From contig OX424566.1 in NCBI GenBank assembly GCA_949152475.1, positions 25,644,423-25,708,422 on the forward strand: 64,000 bases of DNA, given 5' to 3'. The first letter of the stretch is position 1. Each line of letters begins with the position of its first letter. Under the pieces are notes generated by a model. That model was given only the letters and a program-made list of their open reading frames with translations. It was not told the origin of the DNA and made no database searches. This stretch comes from Terebella lapidaria (taxonomy: Eukaryota; Annelida; Polychaeta; Terebellida; Terebellidae). The position numbers and the translations under genes are program-made. This document shows, piece after piece, positions 13,501 to 57,838 of the stretch.

Positions 13501-15693
13501 CCTTGAGGTTTCCTGCATATCTCGGAAATAGTGCGTCGTAGAGCGAAATGGACCTTACTTTCAGACTCATCGCCTTAGGGGTATTAGGGATGACCTATGA
13601 CCTTGACCTGAATTTTTTTTGCCGAGTGGGCATTTTTTGTTTTGTTCGATATCTCGGAATCGGTGTGACGTAGAGCAAAACGAACGTTATTTTCGGACTC
13701 GTCGCCCTAGACAAACATGTACCAGGGATATTAGGGATGACCTTGACCTTGAATTTTTCTGCAGAGTCGGCATTTTTCGTTTTCGTCAATATCTCGGAAA
13801 CGGTGCGTCGTAGAGCGAAACAGACGTTATCTTCGAACTCATTTCCCTAGACACACATGTCTAAGGGGTAGTATGGATGAACTTTGACCTTGACCTGAAT
13901 TTTTTTTTACTGAGTCAGCATTTTTCGCTTTCGACGATATCTCAGAAATGGTGTGCCCTAGAGCGAAACCGACTTATTCTCGGACTCGTCGCCCTAGACA
14001 AACATGTTTGAGGGGTATTATGTATGAACTTTGACCTTGACTGGAAATTTCTTTGCAGAGTCGGCATTTTTCGTTTTCAACAAACATGTCTAAGGGGTAT
14101 TATGGATTAACTTTGACCTTGACCTCAAATTTTTCTGCTGAGTCGACATTTTTTCATTTTCGTCAATATCTTGGAAACAATGTGTCGTAGAGCCCATGGT
14201 AAAATGTATGTTATAAATATTATAAATTAGTCTTAACACCGAAATGCCTCCAAGGTATCTTTAGGCCTTGACGTCTAGTTTTTCTGCTGAGTCGGCATTT
14301 TTCTTTTTCGTTGATATCTCGGAAGCGGTGCGTCGTAGAGCGAAACAGACGTCATTTATGGACTCGTCGCCCTAGACAAACATGTCTAATGAGTATTATG
14401 AACTTCGATCTTGACTTGACATTTTTTTGCCTAGCCGGCATTTTTCGTTTTCGTCGATATCTCGGAAACGGAGCATCGTAGAACGATACGGATATTATTT
14501 TCAGACTCGTCGCCCTAGACAAACATGTCCGAGGGGTATCAGGGTAGGGATGACTTTTGACCTTGACCTTGAATTTTTCTGCACAGTCAGCATTTTTCGT
14601 TTTCGTTGATTTCTCGGAAACGGTGTGTCTTAGAGGGAAACAGACATTATTTTAGGACTCGCGACCCTAGACAAACATGTCTAAGGGGTATTAGGGCTGA
14701 CCTTGACCTAAAATTTTTCTGCTGAGTTGGAATTTCTCGTTTTCGCCGATATCTCGGAATCGGTGCGACGTAGAACGAAACGGACGATATTTTCGGACTC
14801 GTCGCTCTAGACAAACATGTTGCAGGGGTATTGGGGATGACCTTTGACCTTGACCTTGAATTTTTCTGCTGAGTCAGCCTTTTTCGTTTTCGTCGATATC
14901 TTGTGATCGATGCGTCGTAGAGTGAAACGGATGTTATTTTCGGACTCGTCGCCCTAGACAAAGATGTCCAAGGTTATTAGGGTAGGGATGACCTTTGACC
15001 TTGACCTTGAATTTTTCTGCAGAGTCGAAATTTTCCGTTTTCGTTGATTTCTCGGAAATGGTGTGTCTTAGAGCGAAACAGACATTATTTTAGGACTCGT
15101 GACCCTGGACAAACATGTCTAAGGGGTATTAGGGTTGACCTTGACCTAAATTTTTTTTGCTGAGTTGGCATTTTTCGTTTTCGTCGATATCTCGGAATCG
15201 GTGCGACGTAGAGCGAAACGGACGGTATTTTCGGATTCGTCGCCCTAGACAAACATGTCACAAGGGTAATGGGGATGACCTTTGACCTTGACCTTGAATT
15301 TTTCTGCTGAGTCAGCTTTTTTCGTTTTTGTCGATATCTCGGGAAGGATGCGTCGTAGAGCGAAACGGATGTTATTTTCGTACTCGTCGCCCTAGACAAA
15401 CATTTCTAATGGGTATTATGGATGAACTTTGATGTTGACTTGGAATTTTTTTGCCGAGTCGACATTTTTCATTTTCATCGATATCTCGGAAACGGTGCAT
15501 CATAAAGCGAAACGGATGTTATTTTCGGACTCGTCGCCCTAGACAAACATGTCTAAGGGGTATTAGGAATGACCATTGACCATGAAGTGCCGTGTGTCGT
15601 AGTCGAAACGGACGTTATTTTCGGACTCGTCGTCCTAGACAAACATTTCTAATGGGTATTATGGATGAACTTTGATGTTGACTTGAAATTTTT
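13500..15693. repeat. Tandem array, unit about 145 bp (left block)
   Basis: About fourteen diverged units are each marked by TTTTCGTCGATATCTCGGAA, GTGCGTCGTAGAGCGAAAC, GTCGCCCTAGACAAACATGT and a stretch of TGACCTTTGACCTTGACCT. The array ends where an inverted-repeat element interrupts it at 15694 and resumes at about 17114. Short reading frames here (Arg/Ser-rich) are by-products of the repeat. Confidence 0.9.
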
Positions 15694-17113
15694 AGGTTAC
15701 CGGACCAATGGTCCGATAACCTATTGGCATGGCGTTGCGTCCGTCGTCCGTCGTCGTCCGTCGTCGTCCGTCGTCGTCCGTCGTCGTCCACATTTTTATC
15801 TTTTTTGTTTACAGGCGAATTTTTCTGAAATTTTGCACAAAAATACTTAAAAATAATTCAAGAAGGAGGTACTTTTTAGTTTTTTGATTTTCGCATTTTT
15901 TTTCAAAATGGCGGCCGTTTTCAACGAAAAATGCCTGATTTTGGACTTTGGCGGCCATTTTCTCAAAATCTGTTCAGTAACTTTTTTTCTTTTTGATAAA
16001 TAACACTCCTCATATGTACTCCTATGATGTCTATAAATTTCGTTGCGCTTGAATCGCTCGAAGTGGGCCATTTTGGCCCAAACTCGGCTCAAATGGGACT
16101 TTCCCATGTTAAATTCTCCTATGCTTTATAATGGGACACATTATGCCTAATATCTCACTTGATATTGAGATTAGAGACTAGGAATCAATTGTGGACCTAT
16201 AGGAAATGATATATGCTGAATATTCTCGTGACCTTGAATTTGACCTCTGACCTCAGTTTCAAGGTCAGAGCACAAAATGGCTTATATCTCGCTTATTATC
16301 GACTCTACAGCTTAGGAATCAATTGTGGACATATAGGAAATGATATATTCTGAATATTCTCGTGATCTTGAATTTGACCTCTGACCTCAGTTTCAAGGTC
16401 AGAGCACAAAATGGCTTATATCTCGCTTATTATCGACTCTACAGCTTAGGAATCAATTGTGGACATATAGGAAATGATATATGCTGAATATTCTGATGAC
16501 CTTGAATTTGACCTTCGACCTCATTTTCAAGGTCACAGGACAAAATGGCTAATATCTCGCTTGTTATCGACTTTACAGCTTAGCAATCAATTATGAACAT
16601 ATAGGAAATGATATATGCAGATTATTGTCATGACCTTGAATTTGACCTTTGACCTCATTTTCAAGGTCACAGGACAAAATGGCTAATATCTCACTTATTA
16701 TCGATTTTACAGCTTAGGAATCAATTGTGGACATATAGGAAATGATATATGCTGAATATTCTCGTGACCTTGAATTTGACCTCTGACCTCATGTCCTTGG
16801 TCCAAGGACAAACTGGCTCATATCTTGCTCCTCTATTGACTGTATGGCTTGGGAATCAATTGTGGACATGATATACATGATATAGAAAATGATATACACT
16901 GAATATTTTGATGACCTTGAATTTGACCTTTGCCCTTTCATTTTCAAGGCTACAGCATAAAATTGCTAATATCTCTCTGATTATTGAACTTACAGCTTAG
17001 CAATCAACTGTGGACATGATATATGCTTAATGTTATGCTGAATATTCTCTTGACCTTGAATTCAACCAGGGACCTGGCTAACACCTAAAATATTAAACAT
17101 TGTCCGGTAACCT
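15694..17113 (+). mobile_element. Non-autonomous inverted-repeat element inserted in the tandem array (AGGTTACCGG family)
   Basis: The left end AGGTTACCGGACCAATGG and right end CATTGTCCGGTAACCT are inverse. Just inside the left end is a (GTCGTCC)n stretch (15735-15790). Next comes a conserved segment with GAAGTGGGCCATTTTGGCCC (16057-16076), then a tandem array (16150-17060, unit about 125 bp) marked by AGGAATCAATTGTGGACATA and GTGACCTTGAATTTGACC. Degenerate minus-strand relatives lie at 34600-35830 and a fragment near 23060-23140. There is no coding capacity. Confidence 0.75.
16150..17060. repeat. Tandem repeat, unit about 125 bp, inside the AGGTTACCGG element
   Basis: About seven units contain CAAAATGGCTAATATCTCGC, AATCAATTGTGGACATATAG and AGGAAATGATATATGCTGAA. 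Each also carries TGACCT/AGGTCA half-sites. Confidence 0.85.
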
Positions 17114-18740
17114 ATCTTTGGCCCTTGGCCTAATTTTTTTGCCGAGCCAGCATTTTTCGTTTTCGTCGATATCTCGGAAACAATGTGTCGTAGAGCGAAA
17201 CAGACGGTATTTTCGGACTTGTCGCCCTAGACAAACATTTCGAAGAGTATTATGGATGAACTTTGATCTCGACTTGAAATCTTTTTGCCGAGCCAGCATT
17301 TTTCGTTTTCGTCGATATCTCGGAAAAAAGTGTGTCGTAAAGCAAAACGGACGTCATTTTCGGACTCGTCACCCTAGACAAACATATCGAAGGGGTATTA
17401 GGGATGACCTTTGACCTTGACTTTCTCGAAAACAGTGCGTCTTACAGCAAAACGGACGTTATTTTGGGACTCGTAGCCCTAGACAAACATGTCTAAGGGG
17501 AATTATGGACAAACTTTGATTTTGGTCTGAATTATTTTTTTGTGTTTTCGTCGATATCTCGGAAACGATGCGTAGTAGAGCGAAACAGATTATTATTTTC
17601 GGACTCGTCGCCCTAGACAAACATGTCTGAGGGCAATTAGGGTAGGGATGACCTTTGACTTTGGCCTTGACTTTTTCTGCAGAGTCGGCATTTTTCGTTT
17701 CGTCGATTTCTCGGAAATGGTGTGTTTTAGAGTGAAACAGACGCTATTTCAGGACTCGTCACCCTAAAAAAGCATGTCTCAAGGGTATTAGGGATGACCT
17801 TTGACTTTGGCCAGAAATTTTATTGCCGAGTCGGCATTTTTCGTTTTCAGCGATATCTCGGAAACGGTGCAATGTAAACCGGAACGGACGTTATTTTCGG
17901 ACTCATCGCCCTAAAAACATGTCTCAGGGGTATTAGGGATGACCTTGACCTTGATTTTTTTTTGCTGAATCGGCATTTTTCATTTTCATTGATATCTCGG
18001 AAAAGATGTCTTGTGAGCGAAACGGACGTTGTTTTTGGACTCGTCGCCCTAGACAAACATGTTTAAGGGGTATTAGGGTAGGGATGACCTTTGACTCTGA
18101 TCTTGAATTTTTCTGCAGAGTCGGCATTTTTCGTTTTCCTCGATTTCTCGGAAATGGTGTGTCTTAGAGCGAAACAGACGTTATTTTAGGACTCGTCACC
18201 CTAGACAAACATGTCTAAGGGGTATTAGGGATGACCTTTGACCTTGGCCTGAAATTTTTTTGCCGAGTCAGTATTTTTCGTTTTCAGCGATATCTCGGAA
18301 ACGGTGCGACGTAGAACGAAAAGGATGTTATTTTCGGACTCGTCGCCCTAGACAAACATGTCTTAGGGGTATCAGGGATGACCTTGACCTTGAATTTTTC
18401 TGCTGAATCAGCATTTTTCATTTTCGTCGATATCTCGGAAACGGTGTGTTGTGGAGCGAAACAGACGTTATTTTCGGATTCAACACCCTAGACCAACATG
18501 TATGAGTCGTATTATGGATGAACTTTTGACCTTGACCTGAATTTTTTTTGCCGAGTCAGCATTTTTCGTTTTCGGCGATATCTCAGAAACAGTGTGTCGT
18601 AGAGCGAAACCGACCTTATTTTCGGACTCGTCACCTTGGACAGATATGTCTAAGGGGTACTAGTATTATGGATGAACTCTGATCTCAATCTGAAATTTTT
18701 TTGCTGAGTCAACATTCTTCATTTATGTCGATATCTTGGA
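17114..18740. repeat. Tandem array, unit about 145 bp (right block)
   Basis: About eleven units of the same repeat as 13500-15693, separated from it by the inserted element. The last units decay around 18735, where an inverted-repeat arm begins. Confidence 0.9.
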
Positions 18741-20234: not shown

Positions 20235-22010
20235 TGTAACGGTTCTAGCGTTGATATAGTAGTAGCATATGTTCGTTGGGTTGAGCTTAGCTGACCAGAT
20301 GCCTATGAGTTTGGCTTTTTGCCTCGTCTCAGACTGCGGGGGTCGCTCAGTTAACTCGGAATGGCCGCTTGGCTGACTCTGGTTCTCCATCTGGAATGGC
20401 CGCCTGGCTGACTCTGGTTCTCCGTCTGGAATGGCCGCCTGGCTGACTCTGGTTCTCCTTCTGGAATGGTCACTCGGCTGACTCTGGATTTCCGACTGCA
20501 GGGGTCGTTCATCTTGAACTGGTTCTCCGGTTAGAATGGCCACTCGGCTCGACTCCGTTTCTCCGTCTGGAATGGTCATTCGGCTGACTCTGGTTTTCCG
20601 GGTGCAAGGGTCATTCGGCCGCTCGACTGACTCTGGTTCTCTGGCTGGAATGGTCACTCAACTGACTCTGGTTCTCCGGGTGCAAGGGTCATTCGGCCGC
20701 TCGACTAACTCTGGTTCTCTGTCTGTAATGGTCACTCGGCTGACTCTGGTTCTCTGGGTGCGAGGGTCATTCGGACGCTCGACTGACTTTGGTTCTCCGT
20801 CTGGAATGGTTACTCGGCTGACTCTTGTTCTCTGTTCAGCTTACTCTGGTTCTCTGACTGGAATGGAAGGTCGACTGACTCTGGTTCTCCGGCTGGAATT
20901 GTTACTCAGCTGACTCTCTGGCTGCAGGGGTCTTTCGGCTGACTCTGGTTCTCTGGCTGGAATGGTTGCTGGGCTGATTCTGGTTCTCCAGCTGCAGGGG
21001 GTCGTTCGGCTTACTCTGGTTCTCCGGCTGGAATGGCTGGACGACTGACTCTGGTTCTCTGGCTGGAATGGTTGCTCGGCTGACTCTGGTTCTCCAGCTG
21101 GAATGGCTGGATGACAGACTCTGGTTCTCCGGCTGGAATGGTTGCTCGGCTGACTCTGGTTCTCCAGCTGGAATGGTTGTTCGGCTGACTATAGTTCTCC
21201 AAATGCAGGGGTCACTCGGCTGACTCCGGTTCTCCTGGGGCAGGGGTCACTCGGCTGACTCTGGTTCTCCGGCTGGAATGGTTGTTCGGCTGACTATAGT
21301 TCTCCAAATGCAGGGGTCACTCGGCTGACTCCGGTTCTCCGGGTGCAGGGGTCACTCGGCTGACTCTGGTTCTCCATCTGGAATGGTAACTCGGCCGACT
21401 CTGGTTCTCTGGCTGTAGGGGTCGTTTGGCAGACTCTTGTTCTCCCACTGTAGTGGTGTTTCAGGGGACTTTGGTACTCCGGCTGCAGTTTGTCTCGAAT
21501 GACTTCCGGTTTTGTTTCGGGTGACGTCGGTTCTCTGGCTGCAGGCGGTCTCGGGTGGTAGCGGGTTTGGTCTGCAGTCACTCCTTGCCTGTGCAAAGTA
21601 AGGATCGCCAATCATTCGGGTTTTAGTCCGCATTCCTCATCAACCTTTTCCTCTTCGTCTGATTGTTCAGTTGATAGCTTGGGTTCTGAGCTATTTCAGA
21701 CGTTATCAGCTTTATTTTATCCAACGGGTCTTCCAATCAATTCCACGTTCAACTTTGGTTGACTTTACTTCTTGAAATTCTTTAAGTTCAGTGTCATTCC
21801 ATCTGTATACCCGAACACGGAGTCGGATGGGCCGACTCAAATATCAACTCTCGGCTTGATTTCAAGGTTTCTTGACGAATCACACATTCGGAAGAACTTG
21901 TTGCAGATACATCTAGAGAGGAAGTTGACTATGATTGAACTCAACCACATGTGTTATATATGTTGTACAACAATTGCCAAATTTATTTGTTTCACACAGT
22001 ATTAAATATG
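20235..22010. mobile_element. LTR-like fossil region containing a minisatellite
   Basis: It begins TGTAACGGTTCTAGCG at 20235, the same TGTAACGG start as the solo LTR at 46152, and shares a short AAAGTAAGGATC word (21597) with it. No matching right end was identified, so limits are approximate and the element is broken. The assignment rests mainly on the terminal motif. Confidence 0.3.
20330..21560. repeat. Minisatellite, 30-bp basic unit
   Basis: About forty units of GGCTGACTCTGGTTCTCC followed by GGCTGGAATGGT or GGGTGCAGGGGTCACTC. Because the unit is a multiple of three, minus-strand frames stay open in places and give a repeating TRVSRxTIPxGEPES-like peptide. I regard this as a by-product of the period, not a gene. 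Confidence 0.85.
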
Positions 22011-28467: not shown

Positions 28468-30027
28468 TAGTACCTTGAGGATCGTCACTGGTGTTACCGA
28501 ATCCAAAACTTCAAGCCCAAACAATCAGCCATTTCTCTTTTATAATGGGAGCTGTGCCGAGTGAACACCTGAATTACTGCAATATAGAGCTTAGATACCG
28601 GCACACCCAGATAGGAAGTCATTTATGGCATTTACAGTGATGACCTTGAACTCGACCTTTGATTACATTGAATTGTTCAAAGGGAATTTAAAACACCACC
28701 TCATTGTTCCGTGATCCTGGTGCTATACGTGATTATTAAACGTGAGTGACATATATTAACCTCATAATATTTGATTGAAAACAAAACCCCTTCTGTTTCG
28801 AACATCGATTTACTTGAGATGTTTGATGTGCAGCCATGTGTCCCAACATCTGGTACCTCATCAATTGATACATGTAAGTCTATTTATCGGTATATCACTC
28901 TCACACACTGCTATGTGTTTCAGTTATGGCGTGTACAGTATTTTAACCATTTATCAGCTTCACCCAAACCATGCATGCTGTCATTGAGTGCATAATACTA
29001 TGAGACTGTAAAGAAATCCTGTCTTCAGATTTGCCATTAATTGTTGAAACAAAGTTTTATTGGTAACTAGATGCATCTCATATAGTTACCAAATTTCCGG
29101 CCAATCTGAATTGGAAATGAAATGAGAAATTCATTGTTACATGCGGTCTGTAGTACTAGTATAACTAACACAGCAAATTATGATCGAACTTTATTCAAAC
29201 CTCGGAACTGAATCATTCAGCACATTTACTAATATTTAAATCATTGAATGTGTAACAACTGGTAAACAATAATGTCAACTTCTTAGCATTTAGGCAGATG
29301 TGAAAGTAGACATCGTCATCATGGAATTTCAGCATATGATCAAATGTACACTATCATGCTTTCAAATTCTCAGCTCCATTAGAATGATTCAAGTAATGTA
29401 CTGGACTAAAGTACGATTTCGAATAGTAACCACCATAAATTCGAATGAGAACAATACTTCTAATGTGACAACAAACATTTATCATGTTCACAGCAAAAAC
29501 AACAGTAGACGTGGGACCAATGGAATTTCGCAACACATTGATCATGTTGATTAACCTTCTTCAAGTAATATATACAGTGATAACAGAATATTCCTTGACA
29601 ATCAGCATGCAGTGTACCTCTTATCTCATCCAACCCTCGCACAGTATATCATTTTTTGATAATAAATGTAGGATTATTCAATCAAAAAATTATACCGAAA
29701 CTTGGATTACATTGTTGTTTTGATGGACTAATAATTACTCTGTCTTGATCAGCATAGGTTGAAATGAATATAAAAGGGGTGATACAGATACCGTTATTGC
29801 CTGTTTCTGAATAACCCTGTACAATTCCTGTCATCATTGGGGGGATGGTACTATTTACATATTTTTTGTGGGCATACACATACTACTTGCTTCGTATCAT
29901 AAGCTGAACCGTTTCATCTACATCACTGAAGACAAAACAATGCCGCCTTAACTATAAACAAAATACGGCCAATGTAAACAAACGGCATTTGACAGTAAAA
30001 ACGTCACGTGGTCTGAGGTTGGTGAGT
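28468..30027. other. AT-rich interval downstream of PRDM9
   Basis: No coding, RNA or transposon signature was recognised. The inverse of AATAAA (30027-30032) overlaps the PRDM9 stop and could end its transcript. Confidence 0.4.
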
Positions 30028-33000
30028 TTATTGTTTGTGAGTTCGCACGTGTTTGTTATAGTTACTGCTGTCACTGAAACATTTACCACAAGTTGTACAT
30101 TTGTACGGCTTCTCTCCTGTGTGGATTCTCATGTGTCCGTGGAGGTGTCCAAGCTGATGGAAACATTTACCACAAGTTGTACATTTGTACGGCTTCTCTC
30201 CCGTGTGGATTCTCATGTGTGTGTGGAGGGGACCAGACTGATTGAAACATTTACCACAAGTTGTACATTTGTATGGTGTCTCTCCTGTGTGGATTCTCAT
30301 GTGTTTGTGGAGGTCACCAGACTGATTGAAACATTTACCACAAGTTGTACATTTGTACGGCTTCTCTCCTGTGTGGATTATCATGTGTGTGTGGAGGTTA
30401 CCAGCAACATTGAAACATTTACCACAAGTTGTACATTTGTGCGGTTTCTCTCCCGTGTGGATTCTCATGTGTGTGTGGAGGGGACCAGACTGATTGAAAC
30501 ATTTACCACAAGTTGTACATTTGTACGGTGTCTCTCCTGTGTGGATTCTCATGTGTGTGTGGAGGGGACCAGACTGATTGAAACATTTACCACAAGTTGT
30601 ACATTTGTACGGCTTCTCTCCTGTGTGGATTATCATGTGTGTGTGGAGGTTACCAGCAACATTGAAACATTTACCACAAGTTGTACATTTGTGCGGTTTC
30701 TCTCCCGTGTGGATTCTCATGTGTGTGTGGAGGGGACCAGACTGATTGAAACATTTACCACAAGTTGTACATTTGTACGGCTTCTCTCCTGTGTGGATTA
30801 TCATGTGTGTGTGGAGGTTACCAGCAACATTGAAACATTTACCACAAGTTGTACATTTGTGCGGTTTCTCTCCCGTGTGGATTCTCATGTGTGTGTGGAG
30901 GGGACCAGACTGATTGAAACATTTACCACAAGTTGTACATTTGTACGGCTTCTCTCCTGTGTGGATTATCATGTGTGTGTGGAGGTTACCAGCAACATTG
31001 AAACATTTACCACAAGTTGTACATTTGTACGGTGTCTCTCCTGTGTGGATTCTCATGTGTGTGTGGAGGGGACCAGACTGATTGAAACATTTACCACAAG
31101 TTGTACATTTGTACGGCTTCTCTCCTGTGTGGATTATCATGTGTGTGTGGAGGTTACCAGCAACATTGAAACATTTACCACAAGTTGTACATTTGTGCGG
31201 TTTCTCTCCCGTGTGGATTCTCATGTGTGTGTGGAGGGGACCAGACTGATTGAAACATTTACCACAAGTTGTACATTTGTACGGCTTCTCTCCTGTGTGG
31301 ATTATCATGTGTGTGTGGAGGTTACCAGCAACATTGAAACATTTACCACAAGTTGTACATTTGTGCGGTTTCTCTCCCGTGTGGATTCTCATGTGCAGTC
31401 GGAGTGAACCAGCATGACTCAATTGTTTACCACAAACCGTGCACACATTTGGCAGTGTTTCGTGAATTTTTACGTGATTGGTGAAAACAGTATCACCAGT
31501 AAAGTTCTTTCCATATGTACTACATTGACGTTTTACATCAGCTTTTCCACCAGTGTTAATACCTGCCACACTAGATATAGTTCTTTTCGAACGGTGATCA
31601 CATGTAATAGATACACTGGTATGTGAATTGACAGAATTGGCTACACACTTAGTGACACTTTCTTTCATATCTGAATCTCCATAGTGTATAATATCATTCT
31701 TCCTGTTGACAACATCATGGCGCGAACAATTTACAGTTTCTTTCTTTGATGACACATCATAATTTGCATGGTCGTCTGTACAATCACCAACATTATTTTC
31801 AACAACAGGTTTAGTTTTCAAATGACGCTCCATCTCTCTGTTTTCTCTCTTCACTTTCTCAATCAGTAGGTATATTTGTAGTGGTAGCGCATCTCCGTGT
31901 TTTAACTTTCTGTGCTTGTGATACAAGATTTCATTGGTGTACATACGATTACAATCTTTACAGTGAAAATCTGAGTTCGACTTTTCCACATTCAGCTCAG
32001 CAGTTTTCTGATCTAACGTTCCATGACAAACGTCTGATATCGTACAGACTTTCTCTTTCTTCTGGAAGGGTTCTATGCCGAGGTCTGTGCCGTATTCCGC
32101 CCCGTACCACACCAGGATCTCTGTGTTGGCTGGGATGTCTCTGATGGTCCTGTAGTACACCTCGCCTCGGTACTGGAAGGCCACAAGATTCTGTTGCTCC
32201 TCGTTACAGGCGCAGTTCACGAAGCGCATCCAGTTGGCTCTGGACTCGTCATCAGCATCGACGTAGTGTGATGGTTTGCCATCTTTGTAGATCTCCCAAC
32301 AGTACCTAAATAAGAAGAGGTGAACACACTTTGACGAACGCGAAATATCTAAGTTCATAACGTGGAAAGAGTACATGCTAAAAAATTAAAAAGGGTCATT
32401 TTTTTTCTATTAGTATATCTGAGTTTTAATTCACATCAGAACCTGTCACTGTTATTCACATCTATAGATCTTTTTTATAGATATTTATTCTTACAACATA
32501 ACTACTATAACACTATTTGTAGACTTAGGTACTCACCCAGATTCATGGGCGATTTCTGGTTCCTCCACGACAACACCATCATACGGTCCAAAGCGCACAC
32601 CTTTGGGAATATCCGCTGTCGCCCAGACACCCTTGCCTGCTCCATGGATCATGGACTCGCGGATGTCGAGATCGGGAGGTACGGTGTTGTGTGCTCGCTT
32701 GGGGTCACTGCCATCCTTCGCTACAACGCGGTCCTCTACGACTATCAGAGGACCGTGGATTGGACAGTCACCGTCGTATTCCTTGTTGCAGTCGTCACAG
32801 AAGATGTAGTAGTCATCGTCGGGGACTTCAAGGTCGGCGTAGTTCCTACGGACGATATTGCGTTTTGGGTAGCGCTGACGGTTTTTCTTGCGCTTTTCTT
32901 CTTCCAAACTCATCGCTGCGAATTTCTTCAGGGTTTTCTCCGATGTTGGATCACGCATCTCCTCCTTTTCAACATCTTTCACACTCCTGACTTGTTCAAG

Positions 33001-33552
33001 ATTTTCCAAGCCTTTCTTTATTTTGGAAATATTGTTTCTAACCAGTTGCCTTTTGAACGCAATCTCATCGGGAGTGAACCCTTCGAATGTTGTTCCCATA
33101 TTCGGTAGGCTCAATGTAGATTTCATGGCTTTTAATACTTCAGGATGCAGACACAGTACAGGCTTGCTGTCAAGAACTTTTTCCACTTTTGTTGTCTGTT
33201 TCCGCGGGGCCCTTGGCTTCACAAATTTCTTATAAGGTGTCTCTTTTTGTAACTTTTCCAAATCTGGAGTCCATTCCACTTCATCTGGATGTTGAAGTTT
33301 CAACTGTTTCTTCCGTTCTTCTAATGCTTTCTCTGCCTTCGTTCTCATGAACCATGGTTTTCCAATACTGAGACCAAAGAACTGCATGGCGTGGTAGTTT
33401 TGTTTGATTTTTCTGAGCCTATTTTTCTCATATTCTACCATGTTGTCGAGCTGTTCCCTCGTGAAATATTGCTCAATATCAATCTTTTCCAGTGAATTTT
33501 CATCATACAGTCCAGGGACCTGGGAGAAGTCAATATCCGTGTCGAAATCCAT
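30028..33552 (-). CDS. PRDM9: PRDM9: KRAB-like, SSXRD, PR/SET histone methyltransferase with zinc-finger array
   Basis: Coding exons 33552-32537 and 32305-30028, joined GT-AG in phase 2, give 1,097 residues. The ATG at 33552 is 16 bases after an acceptor at 33569, so a non-coding first exon is likely; the frame is open further upstream. Order: KRAB-like motif about 25-75 ([17 protein letters not shown], then VEWTP as in mammalian PRDM9); SSXRD-like block about 227-255 ([14 protein letters not shown]); PR/SET about 294-412 ([41 protein letters not shown]); an isolated finger about 453-477; a basic linker; then 17 tandem C2H2 fingers from about 622. In vertebrates PRDM9 trimethylates H3K4 and K36 at DNA motifs bound by the fingers and places meiotic double-strand breaks. 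All expected domains are present and the frame is unbroken, so a working gene is likely. Confidence 0.95.
30031..31458 (-). repeat. PRDM9: PRDM9 zinc-finger minisatellite: 17 units of 84 bp, partly in 168-bp dimers
   Basis: Each unit encodes one 28-residue finger on a [16 protein letters not shown] frame. Sixteen units form essentially two types that alternate: A (helix NVAGNLHTH, then MIIH) and B (NQSGPLHTH, then MRIH). From the N-terminal side the order is one divergent finger, A B A B A B A B A B B A, then [19 protein letters not shown] and a final SDSSNYNKH. Units are almost identical at DNA level outside the helix codons, as expected for an array that turns over by unequal exchange or conversion. 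Confidence 0.95.
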
Positions 33553-33570
33553 CGTTGAATCTGTCGGTCT

Positions 33571-41120: not shown

Positions 41121-41438
41121 TATGTTGAGTGCATTCGTCAGTGATCAAGGAAATGATCAGGAAATGAAATGATTTGCACTTACCATACATATCCATGGCG
41201 TACAGCACCTCAGTTATCTGAGTGTATACCACACTTAATGTTACAAGTATGGGCACTAATGCAATTTGCCGGTAAATGATAGTTGTAGGAATACCTGAAG
41301 TTATCTTGCCATAACAATAAATGAAGTGAGCGAAACTAAATGAAATGTATTGAGGGGGCCTCCGAGGCCAATTATGTGCTATTAAGGGTTAAGGTCATTG
41401 GAGGTCAAGTTCAAGGTCACCACTGAACCCACATTATA

Positions 41439-44400
41439 TTGTAACAAAACCAATAAAGCAGAGCGCGCCAAAAACGTTCATTAGGAAGGAGAGTCTCTCG
41501 CAGAGGCACTGTGCACGGAAGTACCGTTCGCGGAAGACTACTGGCGGAGGCACCGTTCGCGGAGGCACCGTTCGCGGAAGAATACTCGCGGAAGAACCGT
41601 TGCAGAAGAACCGTTCGCGGATGCAGCCTTCTCCACGAGGTACTGAGTGTGGAAGAGTCATTCGCGATCGAGGATGTGAGCACAGCCACCCAGGCTATGT
41701 AAGGGCGAGCGGACGACCACTCAGTGAGCACTGCAACAGCGACATCGACCGTGGGAAGATCGTCACCGCCACGACCAAGGGACTCAAAAACCTTCGTGCG
41801 GCCGACTCCTTCTTCAGGGCCTTTGAGTCAGTGGGATTTCGACTAACTACCTGGAGAAACCAATCGACTAACGAGAAGGGAAACGTTACCGAGACGGGAC
41901 AGAGAGAAGCCTTCGGCAAAGAACTCTTTTTTAAGTTGTGCCCTCGTGCACTATTATTTTTAATGTGATCATACAGTGCTTCATGTCCGAACTTCATATC
42001 TGTACGTCACTTGGGTGACCGACAATTCCATTGTAAGTTACTGATTTGATGTTGAAAAATCTTCATTTATTCACGTCTAATAGACGTGGAATCAATACCC
42101 AGTATTAAGTATTCCGAGCAAACAAAACAGGGTCCGTTATCCAATCTCATAGTCCGGGGACAGAAAGTCATATCAGGCATACGAAGTTGATTCTAAGTTG
42201 ATTCTTGCCTGAGCAAGCCGGTAAGCTACTGAGTGATGCACCGAAAATAGTGACGGCTCTTGAATCACAACGAGCAGGAGTTACGAAATTCTATACGATC
42301 AGGAGGCAGGGTTTTTGGGCAGACAAAAACATAACAACAGTCATACCACCACGTCACAACTTGGTGCACATGACCAGGATCCCCGAGGGTTTACTGCCAG
42401 GGAACGAACCTCAGCATCACTCATGTGAGGAGGAAACGACGAAACTACCCCAGGGAAGACAGGAGGTGAAGAAGAAGACTCTTCGCGGATGGCCTCACTT
42501 GCGGAAGAGGACGACGATCGTTCACGGAAGACGACCTTGGCAGAAGAGGACGACGACCGTTCGCGGAAGGCGACCTTGGCAGAAGAGGACGATGACCATT
42601 CGCGGAAGGCGACGTTTGCGGAAGACGACCGATCGCAGAAGATCAGCTTCACAGCCAGGGGTGGACGTGGTGTTTCGACGAATGAGGAACAACAGGGAGG
42701 TCCAGATCTACTGTGGGCGGACGAGGAGGACTCGCGAACGAGAGTATGGCGACCAATCTTCCTTTCCAGTTTTTCAGAGTAGACGGGGAAGACCATTCGC
42801 GGATAGGGCCGTTCGCGGAAGACCAGTGGAAGACAGTGCTTTGTGGAAGAACGTCTCGGAGGCATCTTAGCGGACGAGCCGGTTCGCGGAAGACTCGCGG
42901 AAGACAGCGTTTTTCGGGAGCTGAAGAGTCAGTTTGCGGAAGGTTCACGGAAGACAGCGTTCCGGAAGAGGGAGGTCTTCACCCAGTCTACAACCGAGAC
43001 AGCCATCCCCCTGGAGGAATTAAGCTTCCATTTCAGGCAACCAGGGATGCCGGAGACAGCACCCTTTCTGATCATTGGGTGATGAATGGCCGTCATCGGA
43101 AGAAGGGACCGACAGCAGTCATGGTTACCCAGGACGGGGGAGGTCACCACCGAGGCAGGGGCCGCCGCTGCATCTATAAAGCCCCAGGGGGAGACGGAGA
43201 AAACTCGTCATCCGAGGATAGCTCAGCCTGGAACCAGAGCGGCAGAAGGAACTGAAAGATGCTCACACCTGACAAGTTCGATGGGACATCTATAGAGTGG
43301 CTGGTGTACCGGGTCCACTTTGACGTCATCGCAGATTTCAACGGATGGAGCAAGTGAGAACAGAGCGTCTACTTAGCCGGGAGTCTGACATGAGAGGCGC
43401 GACGAATGCTGATGAGCTTGAGTCCTGACTGTCAGGAGGAGTCGTACAAGGCGACCGTGGGACAGAGAACCTGCAGGAAGGCAGAGAAACCCCAGCAGTA
43501 TGGCTATGAATTGCAGCGACTGGCCGGCTGGGTTATCCGGATCTGAACTCCGCGGCTCAGGAGGCTATCACCTTAGACCACTTCTGGAAAGGCCATCCAG
43601 ATGGGGACATGAAGGTGATGGCGCTCATGAAGAAAATGAAGACCATGGAGGAGGCCATAGCGTTCGTAGCCCAGTACGAATGTGTCAAACCCAAGCATGG
43701 AAAGCCGGTGATGTCCATCGAGTTGGAAGACTCCGAGCCAGCAATAGGACGGGTCCCAGATGGGGACATGAAGGTGATGGCGCTCATGAAGAAAATGAAG
43801 ACCATGGAGGAGGCCATAGCGTTCGTAACCCAGTACGAATGTGTCAAACCCAAGCATGGAAAGCCGGTGATGCCCATCGAGTTGGAAGACTCTGAGCCAG
43901 CAATAGGACGGGTCCTGCAGCTACTGTAGAATCAGCAGGAGGGCGATGCTACAACCAGTGGGCAGCAGAGCAACCAGCCAAATGCAGCGGGTCTACCCAG
44001 ACTTCCCTACTTCAAGGGGTTCTTTGAGAGTCAGGACAGGAAGCTGGATCGACTAATCGAGCTGTGTGAGCAGGTGCTGTCTATCAAACCAGTAGGGCTC
44101 ATACCAGCCCTCAACCGTATGGGCCAGTGGCAGGTGTGTGCACGGCTTCGCAGGAGGGAAGAGCGACGAAGACGTGACGAACACATTACCACGGGGGAAC
44201 TTTCAGGATCGAATTCTCGACTATTTAGAGGGCAAGCCTGTCGAAACAGACGGGAGTGCCAATGTACAGCAAATTGATGGAGCCGTGGAGCATCTAAGAC
44301 CCACGGAGTCGTCAACGACATGCAGACTGATGGAGCTGTGGAGCATCTGGGGACCCACGGAGACATCAACAAGGTTTTTGCTAGCAGCAAGGAAGACCAG

Positions 44401-45330
44401 CAAGTTACAAACTTGAGGCTAGAAACTGCGAAACAGCAGCCCCCCCCCCCCCCCCCACATTCATTTGAACTAAAAGCTGCCGTAAAAGAGGAGACAGAGG
44501 GCCTGGTGAGCGGAAAGACCGATGGGCCAACGCAGCAGCCATTGCTGGTGGACGACTCAGTAATTATCCAAAGCGGCGGTTCTGAGGGGAGTGCAACCTT
44601 AAGATTTACAGAGAGGACCAGGGTGATGCACCATTGTGGGTGGACGACTCAGTACTTATCCAGAGCGACGTCCCTGAGGAGAGCTTTCTTAATATTGACA
44701 GAAATGGCCAGGTGGTGTCGTTGTCAGCCGGTTCCCGAGGCACATTGGCGTGGTATGCGGCGTGCCACGTTATGGGGATGGTGACTCGTATGTTGTTGGA
44801 CACGGGTTCCTCCTCCACCGCTCTGGACAAGTTTCTCTTCGACCAACTGGATGACGAACATAAAGCGATGATAAGGCAGACGAGAATAAGGTTACGGGCA
44901 GCAACCGGAGACTACCTACAGGTTCGAGGTGAAATGACAGCACAACTTCTACTGGGCACATGACTCGTGTCAGCGGACGTACTGGTAGCCAAGCTGGGAA
45001 TCCCGGGTGTGCTAGGGCTAGATGTACTTCAACAGATTGGGGAACAGCTGGATCTGCATAAGGGCGAGTGGCAGGTGGGCGACACTACCGTAGTGATGAA
45101 CTCGGGCCACGAGGACGCCGTCTACACACTGGTGACGGAGGAGACGGTCGTCTTGTCACCCTTTTCAGAAATGATGGTGGACCTCAAACTGACGGGAAGT
45201 GAGGGAGGAGTTCTAGGTATATCATGGTTTTATCTGAAAAATGTCTGCTTGATAACAACAAATTTTCAAGCTTGGAGAGTCTCAGAATTCACCACAGAGC
45301 ATCAAGAGGTCGTTGGCTTCTGGGGACGCC
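41439..45330 (+). mobile_element. Second Gypsy-type fossil: leader, gag and protease
   Basis: The element may start with TGTAACAAAACC at 41439, and a primer-site-like TTGGTGCACATGACCAGG lies at 42360. A gag-like segment begins near 43258 (MLTPDKFDGTSIEWL), as in Gypsy capsid proteins, and a retropepsin motif, LLDTGSSSTAL, lies at about 44790. The gag region contains an internal 159-bp tandem duplication (43601-43918). No reverse transcriptase follows. The copy is truncated and broken. Confidence 0.6.
42480..42980 (+). repeat. GGAAGACGA/TTCGCGGAAG minisatellite
   Basis: Short units of about 36 bp built on TTCGCGGAAGGCGACC and AGAAGAGGACGACGA are repeated in the leader of the second Gypsy-type fossil. 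Related CGTTCGCGGAAG words occur at 41520-41620. They open several Arg/Lys-rich frames on both strands that are not genes. Confidence 0.7.
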
Positions 45331-46151
45331 CGCCTCTCTCCCTGAATCCGTCCCTAACATGCAGTGTATAATCTATGGAAAAAGAAAATCATCACACTTG
45401 GGGAGACCGTTATTATGCAGTAAATCTACCGGTATAACATTTTTTTTCAATTCAGTAAACGTTCTATGTATTGTTGAGTTGAAAGTACACTGCCAACTCG
45501 ATTAGCGGTCCGTTTCCGATAAGCGGTCCGTTTATAAGATAAATTACGTTATCTCACGTTATTTTACGTTTTACGTAATTTTGCGGTCCCCTCGTTCATT
45601 CGCGGGTGATTCTCAACGAAAATCGGCGGTACCGACCTAAACAAGTCAAAATGGTGCCCTATGCCTGCTGACAGGCATGCATTCTCAGATGCGTCTCAAT
45701 AATCTGTCCAACCAAATAAACAGACGAACATAATTTATAGTAATATTACATGTACAGTACATACCCTTTCTAGAATAAATGAATCATCTTTATCGACATA
45801 AATACAGTATGATATAAACACATAAATAAACTGATCGATGATCCTGTTGTACACCAACCTGTCAATATTTTCAACTACCGCGTATGTACATGTAAGTGTG
45901 GATTCTTTGAAGTGTGCCAGCAAGTCGAGAGATTTTATGCCAAGGACGAAGAAAATCGTCAATTAAGGTAGATTTCTACTGAGACGTAGTCACTAGGATG
46001 TTGATACATGTACGTTATACCAGTATATAATTCAATGCAAGTCTATCATAATGAATTAGCTGACGCCATATATTGAACCGTTATGTAACCTGAAAGACCG
46101 TGAAGGTGCAGAGACAACGGATCTGCAGAGAAACAGCTGAAAGTTAAATAT
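45331..46151. other. Interval with a possible pogo/Tigger-like end
   Basis: TACACTGCCAACTCGATTAG at 45487 is followed by a doubled GCGGTCCGTTT, and resembles termini of pogo/Tigger elements. No matching opposite end was found, so this is only a candidate relic. Confidence 0.3.
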
Positions 46152-47532
46152 TGTAACGGGTTTGCACCCTTCTGTGACGTCTTGATGAACCGGTTTTCTA
46201 GGGAGGTGGGTGAGTTGTTGTTTAACCGGAGCTGAAACGGTAAAACTCCGGGAAACTGCTACTGCTGTACGGTTGAACTCCGGCTAGAAGTCTCTAAGGT
46301 TGGTAGCGTGGTCTGGAATGGACCTCTTAACCGTCGTCCGACTGCTAATCTGCAACTGCACCTGTAAAGTAAGGATCCGGAGGCGTTTCCGTCTCCGGGT
46401 ACTGCAACTGCTCCGTCGGGAAACCGCTTTACTGCAACAGCTCCGTCGTTTTCCGTCTTACTGCAAACTGCGACTGCGCCTGGAATAAAGAATCCGGGAA
46501 CGTTGCCGTTTCCGAATACTGCAACCGCTCTGCCAGGTTCCGCCGCACTGCAATCTGCTCCGGTTGGCTCCGCCTCACCGCAACCTGCGACTGCACCTGA
46601 AATGGAGTATCTCGGAAGTGTTCCCACTTCCGGTTACCGCAACCGCTCCGTCAGGTACTGCCTCTGCAACTCCGTCGTCCGGTACCGCCTCTGCAACTGC
46701 TTCGTCGTTCCCGTCTCTGCAACTGTTCCGTCCGATACCGCCTCCATAGTTGCTCCGTCGAATTCCACCTCCGTCTCCGTCTCCTTCCTCGGTGATCTGG
46801 GTTCTTGGATCACCCTAAGACGTCTTTACAACTTGGTCTTAACGACTGTAGTCTTATCTCCCTTTACTCCGTATTACTGTCTTTTCCGGTGAACTAACTT
46901 TATTATAACTTCCAGTTCCCTAACGAACACGGAAAAACAACTCGGTTGAAGTTTTCATGTTTATTTTCCAAGTGCACAGTCGGAAGACTTAACTGCTATC
47001 ATCTGGATGACTCTATCCGGAACAAGGGAGTACTCTGCTATGGGAGAAGGGGTCTGCACAGGTCGACGTCAGGACACCAACTCCGCCGTCCGCTGTGAAG
47101 CGGGGGCTTTTATAGACCTGAGACCCACGTCACGTGACCAACCTATTGTGACGTCATAGTCCGCCAAAACACTGATATTTTCCGGATTTCTAAAAACACT
47201 CTAGAACCAATCAGTGGCTGACACGTCACCTTTTAAACCGAAAACGAGGCTGATCACATGACCTTCCGGAAATAACGTCATTACGTTTTTGTACTCCATT
47301 GTTCCGGCTCCGTGTCCGGTTCCGTCTCCGGTTCAGGCTCCGCCTCCGGCTTTACCGACATCATAAATTACTAAGTTCCGAGACGGAAAACCTTTAAAAC
47401 ATTAACAATACGGAACCGTATGAACCTTTAAACACATATACATTTTAATAAACGGTTATTTAACCAAAATATCACAAAACACTAACAGAATTACCTAGGG
47501 GAAACTTTTGGGTACGCCCCAAAACCGTTACA
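46152..47532 (+). mobile_element. Solo LTR (Gypsy-type)
   Basis: It begins TGTAACGGGTTTGCACCC and ends CCCCAAAACCGTTACA, i.e. TG..CA with an extended inverted terminus, and is flanked by ATAT on both sides (46148-46151, 47533-47536). A TATA-like TTTTATAG lies at about 47107 and an AATAAA at 47446, so transcription would run on the plus strand. Repeated CTGCAACTGC and CTCCGTC words fill 46300-46790. No internal region adjoins it, which fits LTR-LTR recombination. Confidence 0.65.
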
Positions 47533-50600: not shown

Positions 50601-53600
50601 ATGGCATACGTAAAACTGACAGTGAAACAACTGAAAGAGGAGCTTTTGAAAAGAAATGCATCCACTAGAAGCCGCAAAGCTGAACTTTTGTCGAGGTAAT
50701 GTGTGAAATACTCACGGATGTATCAATTATCGCCCACTCACTCATAAACGAAAGGCCCTAATGCACTCGCATGATGAATATGGTATCAAATGTGGTATGA
50801 ATAAGGTATATACCTTATTCATACCACATTTGATACCATATTCGGTATGATGGTAATCATTAGGGTTTTAATTAGTTATTTTATGAGCTCATCATAAGTT
50901 TTCGGGAGCACATATATAATTTAGTGGTCAATCCTGTTTCTCTATGATAATCAATGACAATGATGAGTTTATGTACTTTATCAGTGGCACAAAATGATAA
51001 ATACAGATAAAAAGAATATTTAGTTTGCAATAAAGAACATTTTTCTATCATAACCAATTGTCACTCAGGATCCTAAGTATGGGAAATTAGTTGGTAATAA
51101 AATTGCCCACATTATTGTACATCCTAGCCGTTATTCGTAACGTAATGTCATATGTGTCACTGTTCATTCATATCCTGCCGTCTTTTTTTCCAGAGAAAAT
51201 AAATATCTCTAATAGATTTCAATGGAGATAAATCAGAAGCAAGTTTTACACTTATGCAGATCTATTTCTTTTTATTTTTTGTTTTTAGAAATACGAGATC
51301 AACCCCACAAACATGTTAGTATTCAGGTAATATTGTTAGGTCAGAAGAATTGAATATTGATGTAGATTATTATATTATTACTTTTCAGGCTGGAAGACTA
51401 TGACAGGAACCAAAATTTTGGAGTTGAGCCAGTGGTACTTCTGGATCCAACCATACCTGATTGGCCTGAGAGTTTGGCTAACTTCAGACAACTTACCATT
51501 GGACATGCAGCCTCGATACCGGCCGTGTCATCCGAGGAAATTACCAGTTATCTACAGTGGCAACAGGCATGCCCAAAATGTTTATACTTTTTATTAATTG
51601 TTTCTATTTCGAAAATTATGATATTACATCTACATGTATGGCGAATACAAAAAATTGCCGTCACTCATGTGTCATTGAGTCTATAATTGTCCCACAACTT
51701 ACAGGCTACTGACAACCAAGCTGTAGCTAACTTGAAATCGATGGAAAAGGCTGAGCGATTGGTCGAAGCAGGGCGCGTAGCTGCTTGCAGCTTTCTGGCA
51801 AGTGATGGTTGCGTGTTCTTCTCTGGATTTGTGGGAGCTGCTATGAAGAAAAAGGTATGTATCGTTCCTTGTTTGATTTCGCTGCACCATGTATAAGACG
51901 TTGAAAGTTATTCCAGTTAATGTTCCAGTTAGTTAATCATGTTTCACATGTTGTATTTCTTTTTAGTCTACAGACCACAACACTTGATTTTACTCAAGCC
52001 ACTGAACCAGAGGTAAGAATTTGGGATATTGTAATTTTTCACTCTTTTCATACATGTACAGTGGCCCCCTCAGATAACATCCTGCTCTCTCTATAAAGGT
52101 ATGTTTGTGTGGGGTTCGGATCAGTTTAACATTGGAATGCCCCCTCTAATAAAATGTACCCTTAGATAAGACCTCATGAGTTGTCTGGTATATTGTTATA
52201 TTTTATCTCAGGGTGACTACTGTACTCAAAATACAATGCTACAAACATGAATGATGAAGACTGAAGTAAATTAAGGAATAAGCTTTAGAAATCTGATTAC
52301 AGGGATAATTCATTGCAGGTTTTTTGATAGCATTTGAGAAGGTTTGAATACATGTTATGAATTAGCATATCCATGTACCATGTGTACATGTACATATATT
52401 GCTCCTTGAATGATTATATTTGCATATTTTTTAAAAAATACATGATATATCATGTATATGCATATATAATGTATAATGTTCCTAATTGACTAGTAATGAC
52501 TAGTAATGTTCCTAATTGACTAGTATAAATGGTTGTAAATACATATATGTACACCAGTAGGGGATGGGATACAGGCTTGTGTATTCATTGTCCTCATGAT
52601 CAGTAAATTATTCCACAGGTATCTTACAACTTCAAGCTGAGAGTAGACACCAGTGTACCTGCCAAAGTGGAAAATGCTCACTGCGAATGCCCAGCCGGAA
52701 GAGGTCCGAAGGGGACTTGTAAACATGTAGCTGCGATCTTGTTGGTGTTGCACAAGTTCAAGGAATCCGGAGATCTTCAAATCCCTGGGACATGTACAGA
52801 ACAGCTACAAAACTTCCATCATCCACCAAAGCTACACACCGGTTAGTTTATGATTAGGCCACACCAAAGTTGCTGTATGGAATCACCGCCTATAGGAAAA
52901 AGAGTTTCACTTTTAATCACCACTACAAATTACCATGATATCAAAAAATGTTTATTTTTATTTCACCCCCACTACCCGTATTTCATCTTGGACTGTTAAC
53001 GAGCAAAGTGGTTCGATATAAAATTCCGATTAAAATATGGTACTAAGCAGTTTTTTTTCCCAGGGAATACATGTAATAACAATCTGATTGGGAACACTTG
53101 ACCAAAATACCCTCCGTATAGAAAATATTGGTTAGAAGGCCATTGAGCTAAACTTTTTTGCAGAAAATTATTGTCGAAAATCCATAGAAGAAATATTTAT
53201 TTGTGAAAAAAAAATTCTCTGTATACAAGATTTTGGTCGAAATTCCATAGATGAAGAAGTTTACTTGTGAAAAAAAATCTCCTCCACATACAAAATTTTG
53301 GGGAAAAATCCTTAGACCAACTTTACAATTTGGTGTGGCCTTATCTTGCGTGCATGATATAGTCACTGTCAATACTGGATGGTTTACAGCAGTTGCTCCT
53401 CAGTAATATGTACATAAAGTTGCCAACATGGCACTTTTCCGAAGATTTAGGTCATTTCTCCAGAAAGCTATATGGAACAATACAAGTAATTGTTTTAATG
53501 TTAAAACACATCAATAAATATTTTTTGCTTTTGAGAGTACCAGTGAAATGGTGAATCACACTAACACTTGTTGCAGGGCAACATTGAGGTTGTATGGAAT

Positions 53601-54565
53601 CCCTGATATGTTTGTGTTTATATCATATATATAGATCTATATATATTTTTTTTTCAGGTAGCCCAGTGAAGGCATCTGATCTGTCAATTCAGAACAAGAG
53701 GAAGGAAATTGACATCTCTGATCCCAGACCAAAACGGTTTCGCAATCGGGAAGGGTACCGTGACTTCGTGAGGAACTGTGTGTACAATTATGTGGCACAC
53801 ACAGGTGAGGATTTGACTCTGCGTTACAGCTATCCCAAAGCTGACTTGCAGGCGGCTGTCTTCGACCACGATTACTGTGCTTTGCCATTCACTGAACACT
53901 GGGTCGACAACTCAAACAAAATCAGCCAGCCAGTAGCAAAAGTCGTTGAAGAGCAGACCAGATCTCAATCTCAGTCGGTGGAGTGGCTGAAGCAACGCGA
54001 GTGGCGCCTGACCGCAAGCACGTTTGGGACGATATGCAAGGCCACTGTCCGCAGGAACAAGGAGAAACTCTGTCAGAGTCTACTCTGTCCACCAAAGCTC
54101 TCAACACCCGCTATCCTGCACGGTCGCAGATGTGAATCTGTTGCTATCCAGAAATTCTCGAGTCTCCATGACGTCACTGTCCAGAAATGTGGCCTGTACA
54201 TCCGACCCGACCTAGCCTACCTGGGAGCGTCTCCGGATGGACGCATCGATGAAGATAACATCGTTGAGGTCAAGTGCCCCTACAGAGGTCGCAACAAAAA
54301 GATCAAACCAAACAAGTACTTCCCATTCCTTGAATGGAATGGGAAGGAGATAGAATTGAAGGTTTCCCACTCTTACTACGACCAGGTACAGGGTCAAATG
54401 CTGATCGCCAAAGCAAAAATTTGTCACTTTGTAATATACACCTTCAAGGACATCAAAGTAGTCAAAGTGACCTATGATGAATCATACTGTAACCAGGCGT
54501 TGGTACCCAAACTTAAGTCTTTCTATGACACAGTCTATCGAAGGCATGTTGCCAGTAAATTGTGA
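50601..54565 (+). CDS. SAP-SWIM-YqaJ nuclease of the ISL2EU-type transposon
   Basis: Six exons: 50601-50695, 51389-51566, 51705-51854, 51974-52012, 52619-52841 and 53658-54565, giving 530 residues with no break. Residues about 5-35 are a SAP motif (LTVKQLKEELLKRN, SRKAELLSRL), which binds DNA. A SWIM zinc site CxC..CxH is formed by C176, C178, C188 and H190. Residues about 338-500 are a YqaJ-like PD-(D/E)xK nuclease: WRLTAS, E388, SPDG with D422, E432-V-K434, and QVQGQ. Its role in transposition is not established; resection or end processing is a guess from the fold. The second intron starts with GC instead of GT. The start ATG lies 141 bp inside the left end. AATAAA at 55261 follows the stop. 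Confidence 0.88.
50776..50843. repeat. 68-bp perfect palindrome in intron 1 of the YqaJ gene
   Basis: Two 33-base arms, beginning GAATATGGTATCAAATGTGG on each strand, meet at a central TA with no mismatch. This could extrude a cruciform. Confidence 0.95.
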
Positions 54566-57270: not shown

Positions 57271-57838
57271 TTCTACTCTGCAGATAAAAATATATAGTTG
57301 ATGATAACCATTCAACATGTACACTAATTCTTCTAATATAGATACTCGTATATTTCCTGATAACAAAAAAAAAAAACAACACTAGATCTAGGCCTATTGA
57401 ATTTAGTAAAACAGAGTCTGTACATGTGCTAGGCTCCTCTCACCACTATCATGACCACTATAGGCTAGCTTAAGCCACTAGATATAATATTGTGCACAAT
57501 ATGTTCAATTGAGCGCGATCAAAAAAAAAATCATGTGAACTGACAAATTTTCTAGTGGTGCCACAACCCACTAGATTGATACCGTGCCACAATCACAAAC
57601 ACTTGACTTTCGCGATTGACCAGGTGACAGACGACACAAAGCCTACTAGTAACCTGCTAACGGGCGATAATACAGGAAAATACCGTTTCCTTTTCCATAA
57701 TACATCTCACATTCGTATACCAGGAGTTACCAGCGATATTTTCTGAGAAATATAGATTTATTTTATCAGTTTATTGGTTTCTTACCTGTCTGGAATTCAT
57801 AAATGCGTTGACATAAAGGACGAAAGTGTATAACAGTG

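Follow-up and report, generated by a model that had tools for sequence, protein, structure and literature searches.

PRDM9 is, in mammals, the protein that chooses where chromosomes recombine, and the question raised by the locus described here is whether a marine worm carries a gene of the same type that could do the same job. The locus lies in a window of 64,000 nucleotides (64 kb) from the annelid Terebella lapidaria (assembly GCA_949152475.1, contig OX424566.1, positions 25,644,423 to 25,708,422 of the forward strand), and all coordinates given below count from the first letter of that window. A first-pass annotation, made from the letters alone, had proposed that positions 30028-33552 hold a complete PRDM9 with its full set of domains. 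Judged by its sequence, the gene is an intact, functional-looking PRDM9-type gene of the PRDM7/9/11 subfamily; the PRDM9 type and the presence of all the domains stand, and the proposal is weakened by an SSXRD that matches poorly and by a position in the SET tree outside vertebrate PRDM9 plus PRDM11.

The coding region is on the minus strand and runs from the ATG at 33552 to the end of the stop codon at 30028. Coding exon 1 (32537..33552), with 338 open codons and a donor reading GG/GTGAGT, contains a KRAB-like box, an EWTP motif, an SSXRD-like stretch, a zinc knuckle and the first part of the PR/SET domain, while coding exon 2 (30028..32305), also an open frame, contains the rest of PR/SET, an isolated finger, a linker, the finger array and the stop. 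The intron between them (32306..32536) is 231 bp long and of the GT-AG type, falls within PR/SET between HESG and YCWE, and runs from GTGAGTACC, with GTGAGT as its first bases, to TTCTTATTTAG as its last, so that both splice sites are strong and clean. When 33552..32537 and 32305..30028 are spliced, the result is a frame of 1,097 codons with no internal stop, and the two unbroken coding exons that had been proposed turn out to be exact in their coordinates. From N- to C-terminus the protein carries the KRAB-like box, a weakly matching SSXRD-like stretch, the zinc knuckle, PR/SET, the isolated finger, a degenerate finger and a tandem run of 17 C2H2 fingers. A chance open frame is ruled out by 1000 mononucleotide shuffles of exon 1 read in three forward frames, the longest open run in any of them being 199 codons. 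A rival explanation would be that the string of domains was put together, by chance or by faulty joining, from an unrelated zinc-finger gene lacking KRAB, and the Pfam matches listed, which include neither KRAB nor SSXRD, would suit it. However, the exon join sits inside SET, mouse and human PRDM9 align straight through it, ungapped at the join itself (a one-residue gap occurs a few residues earlier), and the N-terminal match was equalled in none of 5000 shuffles; mainly because the PRDM9 alignment runs across the intron, we find this explanation hardly credible. Upstream, 16 bases 5' of the ATG, the sequence can be read as an acceptor-like AG (33569..33570, minus strand, with TTTCTCATTTCAG before the boundary and ACCGACAG after it), which suggests the possible end of an intron in the 5' untranslated region. 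The single exon 32537-33552 holds the KRAB-like box, the SSXRD-like stretch, the knuckle and half of SET, giving few coding exons in comparison with mouse, and this compact two-coding-exon structure may be an unusual feature.

The PR/SET domain occupies residues 291-416 (32074..32682, minus strand, split by the intron). We compared a query spanning knuckle, SET and finger by phmmer with the sequences of solved structures, so that only PRDMs with such structures enter the comparison. At an E-value limit of 0.001, 15 distinct sequences matched, led by three PRDM9 chains at 155.7 (mouse, 4c1q), 150.9 and 150.4 bits (human, 4ijd), followed by PRDM14 (97.0), PRDM12 (91.6), PRDM1 (85.4 and 85.2), PRDM2 (84.5 and 84.1), PRDM4 (82.8), PRDM11 (81.1), MECOM (64.7), PRDM16 (61.9), PRDM10 (58.7) and PRDM5 (55.9). 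The protein search against vertebrate PRDM9 called for in the first-pass annotation thus returned PRDM9 as the best match, at 150-156 bits against 97 for PRDM14. Across knuckle and SET, identity is 82/164 with mouse PRDM9, 80/164 with human PRDM9 and 54/157 with PRDM11; over shorter stretches it is 46/136 with PRDM12 and 49/107 with PRDM14. The motifs NCA, YRT and WYG, named earlier as marks of this SET domain, are all present in the translation, and by alignment and script numbering the residues that correspond to human Y276, Y341 and Y357 are all tyrosine, in GPY, YYRT and VWYG. That numbering starts from an assumed first residue of the human PRDM9 chain, with which the three tyrosine positions come out correctly. 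Among 227 vertebrate orthologues, Baker et al. 2017 report substitutions at these three sites in 57, none of them complete. Just ahead of SET, the zinc knuckle (residues 252-268, 32749..32799, minus strand) matches PF18445 with an E-value of 1.7e-5 and 25.0 bits, slightly under the cut-off of 25.8. Its matches among sequences of solved structures are weak, to PRDM4 (2l9z, E 0.003), PRDM9 (4c1q, 0.02) and PRDM11 (3ray, 0.12), and the same list includes an unrelated chain, 2prv (E 0.0083). Searches for relatives of an 83-residue SET stretch found none among 36 candidate stretches in a collection of bacterial and archaeal genomes, and a single locus in IMG/VR (L001:5001-5063) with 21 residues at 57% identity.

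The N-terminus was compared with a mammalian PRDM9 N-terminus, SSX2 and the KRAB-A box of ZNF10. The KRAB-like box (residues 25-69, ending in KPWFM; 33346..33480, minus strand) scores 120 against PRDM9, in an alignment that reaches the EWTP motif, and 67 against SSX2, neither score being equalled in 5000 shuffles, whereas its score of 33 against ZNF10 KRAB-A was equalled in 426 of 5000. On this difference the box is, as far as its sequence can say, of the ancestral type found in PRDM9 and SSX and not a modern KRAB, and the KRAB-like motif first noted here can be kept as PRDM9-type rather than canonical. A canonical KRAB zinc-finger protein was set aside on the ZNF10 comparison, together with the want of KRAB among the Pfam matches listed at E up to 10. 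The WTP motif said to follow KRAB was likewise found, as EWTP at residues 93-96 (33265..33276, minus strand), where it aligns with the EEWTP of mammalian PRDM9. An SSXRD-like stretch follows at residues 227-249 (RYPKRN...DDDYY; 32806..32874, minus strand), with a weak match to PRDM9 in the same kind of shuffle comparison. Among the sequences of solved structures the N-terminus had no relative, the two matches returned (E 0.34 and 1.7) being unrelated proteins. The distinction drawn here has a precedent in a 2022 study (PMC8835667), which separates PRDM9-type from canonical KRAB and follows the former back to protostomes.

Behind the SET domain, a regular-expression scan found 18 canonical fingers, one isolated and 17 in tandem, in agreement with the isolated post-SET finger and long array expected from the first reading. 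The isolated C2H2 finger occupies residues 452-475 (31897..31968), and the array residues 625-1095 (30037..31449, both minus strand) as an 84-bp repeat, with 16 fingers of 28 residues and a final one preceding the stop. Between them, at 31462..31530 on the minus strand, the translation contains a degenerate finger (RQCSTYG...HVKIH) whose second cysteine has become tyrosine; human PRDM9 also has a degenerate finger before its array. The 16 complete fingers are mostly of two alternating types, reading VAGNLHT (6) or QSGPLHT (7) from helix position -1 to 6. At the DNA level they are 99.6% identical within the first type, 98.5% within the second, 88.5% between the two and 89.4% on average over all 16, which comprise 8 distinct sequences; five two-finger units of 168 bp (fingers 2-11) are 98.2-100% identical. 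Of helix positions -1, 2, 3 and 6, taken as those that contact DNA, diversity reaches 0.66, 0.54 and 0.33 at positions 3, -1 and 6. By the formula of Baker et al. 2017, the four positions hold a share of 0.365 of the amino-acid diversity in the 16 fingers (0.410 without the first finger), a value equalled by 290 of 10,626 sets of four positions other than cysteine and histidine. Because the units are nearly identical, the share is 0.365 and diversity is found off the contacts as well, the array shows a pattern of concerted evolution, with strong homogenisation and a moderate excess at the contact sites. The alternation of two fingers may be an unusual feature, and assembly error within such a repeat array is possible. 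On the plus strand, an antisense open frame of 499 codons (29908-31407) passes through the array; it is probably a side effect of the 84-bp repeat, and is one that ORF (open reading frame) finders could mistake for a gene.

What might such a gene do? With a probability of about 0.55, we propose that it acts as a PRDM9-type gene in meiotic germ cells and chooses the sites at which recombination starts. The zinc-finger array would bind particular DNA sites in those cells, the PR/SET domain would trimethylate H3K4 and H3K36 on nucleosomes near the bound sites, the KRAB-like and SSXRD-like N-terminus would help to recruit the break machinery, and the three parts would jointly decide where recombination starts. 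This is the scheme described for mammals and salmonids (a 2025 salmonid paper being among the sources), in which the choice of sites falls to the fingers, the marking of H3K4 and H3K36 to SET, and help in recruiting the break machinery to the N-terminus. The worm gene itself provides the intact frame, the domain order, the catalytic tyrosines of SET and the homogenised array, which are observed directly; methyltransferase activity, germ-line expression and break targeting are carried over from mammals and fish and would have to hold here by analogy. Two alternating finger types would call for a target that repeats every 6 bp and could be bound in several registers, and a further, unlikely, extension is that the gene directs breaks and that its recently homogenised array makes the allele favour short tandem repeats over a single long motif. 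If that were true, PRDM9-directed recombination would exist outside vertebrates with a repeat-like target. An intact gene with a full array in any case offers a concrete animal in which the recombination role of PRDM9 in invertebrates can be tested.

Several observations weigh against this proposal. The first comes from a FastTree phylogeny of six SET sequences (the window gene, two PRDM9, PRDM11, PRDM14 and PRDM12) rooted on PRDM12/14. The two PRDM9 sequences group together (0.895), as do PRDM12 and PRDM14 (0.985), and the window gene falls between PRDM12/14 and vertebrate PRDM9 plus PRDM11 with a local support of 0.968, that is, as sister to the latter pair. The tree of the SET domain suggested in the first-pass annotation therefore gives no grouping with another PRDM, and it also leaves the gene outside vertebrate PRDM9 plus PRDM11, hence not inside PRDM9. 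Either the gene is older than the split between PRDM9 and PRDM11, or the long branch of PRDM11 has distorted its placement; Fumasoni et al. 2007 describe a tree that is well supported except in how PRDM7/9, PRDM11 and PRDM17 branch among themselves. The placement is also compatible with an origin outside the vertebrates. Another PRDM as the identity of the gene is spoken against by the bit scores among PRDMs with solved structures (PRDM9 at 150-156, the next at 97.0) together with the six-sequence tree, and PRDM11 in particular by the 17 tandem fingers and the 81.1 bits to 3ray. Since the gene lies outside PRDM9 plus PRDM11, PR/SET alone is insufficient to prefer PRDM9 over a pro-orthologue of the PRDM7/9/11 group, which it may be on its tree position, and the name PRDM9 is given because of the domain architecture and the highest identity.

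The remaining points concern the N-terminus and the array. The core of the KRAB-like box reads FTREQL in place of the FTKEEW of mammalian PRDM9, so the tryptophan is lost. Of the SSXRD claimed in the earlier annotation, a similar stretch is there and the match is weak: its score was equalled in 4 of 5000 shuffles against mammalian PRDM9 and in 765 of 5000 against SSX2. Neither KRAB nor SSXRD is among the Pfam matches listed for the two exons (E up to 1) or for the two segments (E up to 10, a setting at which the HMMER filters discard most matches above about 0.1). In the array, helix position 2 is glycine in all 16 complete fingers, and diversity is considerable away from the contacts (helix position 1 has 0.55, the first residue 0.51 and the position that holds arginine or isoleucine 0.47). 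Among the entries listed for complete vertebrate orthologues by Baker et al. 2017, the contact share spans at least 0.331-1.000, with one entry lacking diversity, and the 0.365 of this array is close to the bottom of that range. The same paper reports that in some fish, too, the SSXRD is predicted weakly. Finally, a 2026 review treats the retention of PRDM9 function across animals as unsettled.

Two other accounts of the gene draw on these observations. The main one is that it is a PRDM7/9/11 pro-orthologue which methylates histones and regulates transcription in the germ line or the embryo, and does not place breaks. The position of the gene outside vertebrate PRDM9 plus PRDM11 agrees with this, as do the high expression in blastula reported for PRDM9 of the bivalve Mulinia lateralis and the unsettled functional retention of the 2026 review, but homogenisation with an excess of diversity at the contacts is the pattern that Baker et al. 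tie to complete, recombination-directing genes, and the KRAB-like N-terminus kept here is described as missing from those vertebrate copies that are believed to have no recombination-directing role. We regard this account as a serious candidate, held tentatively. The weakness of the SSXRD could instead mark a decaying or recently duplicated PRDM7-like paralogue, with a better copy elsewhere in the genome; the gene was examined in a 64-kb window, and further genomic copies are possible. Against this, 1,097 codons run without a stop or frameshift, the catalytic residues are conserved and the splice sites are clean, which makes such a paralogue very unlikely, and a PRDM9-type gene that directs recombination is the account that we carry forward.

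Elsewhere in the window, on the minus strand, a THAP-domain ORF (56803-57381, PF05485, E 2.1e-11) adjoins one with DDE_Tnp_4 and HTH_Tnp_4 (55763-56917, E 2.1e-40), and the pair (55763-57381) is probably a DNA transposon of the THAP type, spread over two frames. On the plus strand are a 325-codon ORF carrying a YqaJ viral-recombinase domain (53588-54562, PF09588, E 5.4e-16) and two C2H2-finger ORFs at 9869-10252 and 10406-10990 that are perhaps exons of another zinc-finger gene. A stretch of higher GC content at 41393-46889, with short repeats and a 159-bp duplication at 43597-43915, gave two weak sub-cut-off Pfam matches from the six ORFs scanned, one gag-like (E 2.2e-4) and one aspartyl-protease-like (E 0.0077), and is perhaps a decayed retroelement. 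Satellite-like tandem arrays of various periods occupy 9-2595, 13577-18663 and 20358-21445. The window gave no Rfam match at gathering scores and no ARAGORN match under the bacterial code, and a bacterial promoter scan upstream of the gene has no meaning for an animal gene.

How, then, does the worm gene compare with those already known? With vertebrate PRDM9/Meisetz (mouse 4c1q, human 4ijd) it has in common the domain order, 49-50% identity over knuckle and PR/SET, and the three catalytic tyrosines; it differs in having leucine for the KRAB tryptophan of mammalian PRDM9, a weak SSXRD, and an array made up mostly of two finger types that alternate as 168-bp units. The array of the mouse gene is described as exon 12 (PMC10917509), whereas the worm gene has two coding exons. 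PRDM11 (3ray), of the same subfamily according to Fumasoni et al. 2007, can be aligned over zinc knuckle and PR/SET, but its identity is 34%, it has WYS where the worm gene has WYG, and it is described as lacking zinc fingers. Among invertebrates, Oliver et al. 2009 (PMC2779102) reported Prdm9 with concerted evolution of its fingers in Nematostella vectensis, Lottia gigantea and Capitella, with germ-line transcripts in snail and sea urchin; set beside these by description, the worm array resembles them in its apparent concerted evolution, resembles that of Nematostella in the diversity reported at -1, 3 and 6, and has 17 tandem fingers against the 23 finger sequences reported for Lottia. For Prdm9 of the oyster Crassostrea gigas (LOC105330008, PMC12111275) the comparison is with the quantitative PCR primers alone, which read EEAHETG and ELLVWY and bound a 222-bp amplicon; in the worm gene, EIAHESG to EILVWY spans 74 codons of the spliced frame, or 222 bp, the same spacing, and the oyster study reports high expression of Prdm9 and Zcwpw2 in the male gonad. 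Baker et al. 2017 cite an origin of PRDM9 early in metazoan evolution, the 2025 salmonid paper calls it ancestral to all animals, and the 2026 review lists full-length homologues in cnidarians and sponges. A complete invertebrate copy, which the first-pass annotation had put forward as news in itself, is thus preceded by the anemone, snail and polychaete genes of 2009 and by those of the review. Taken by itself, the presence of the gene is another instance of a pattern known from the literature since 2009 and, because complete invertebrate copies are already known, the Terebella gene is a sound but ordinary further example of full-length invertebrate PRDM9.

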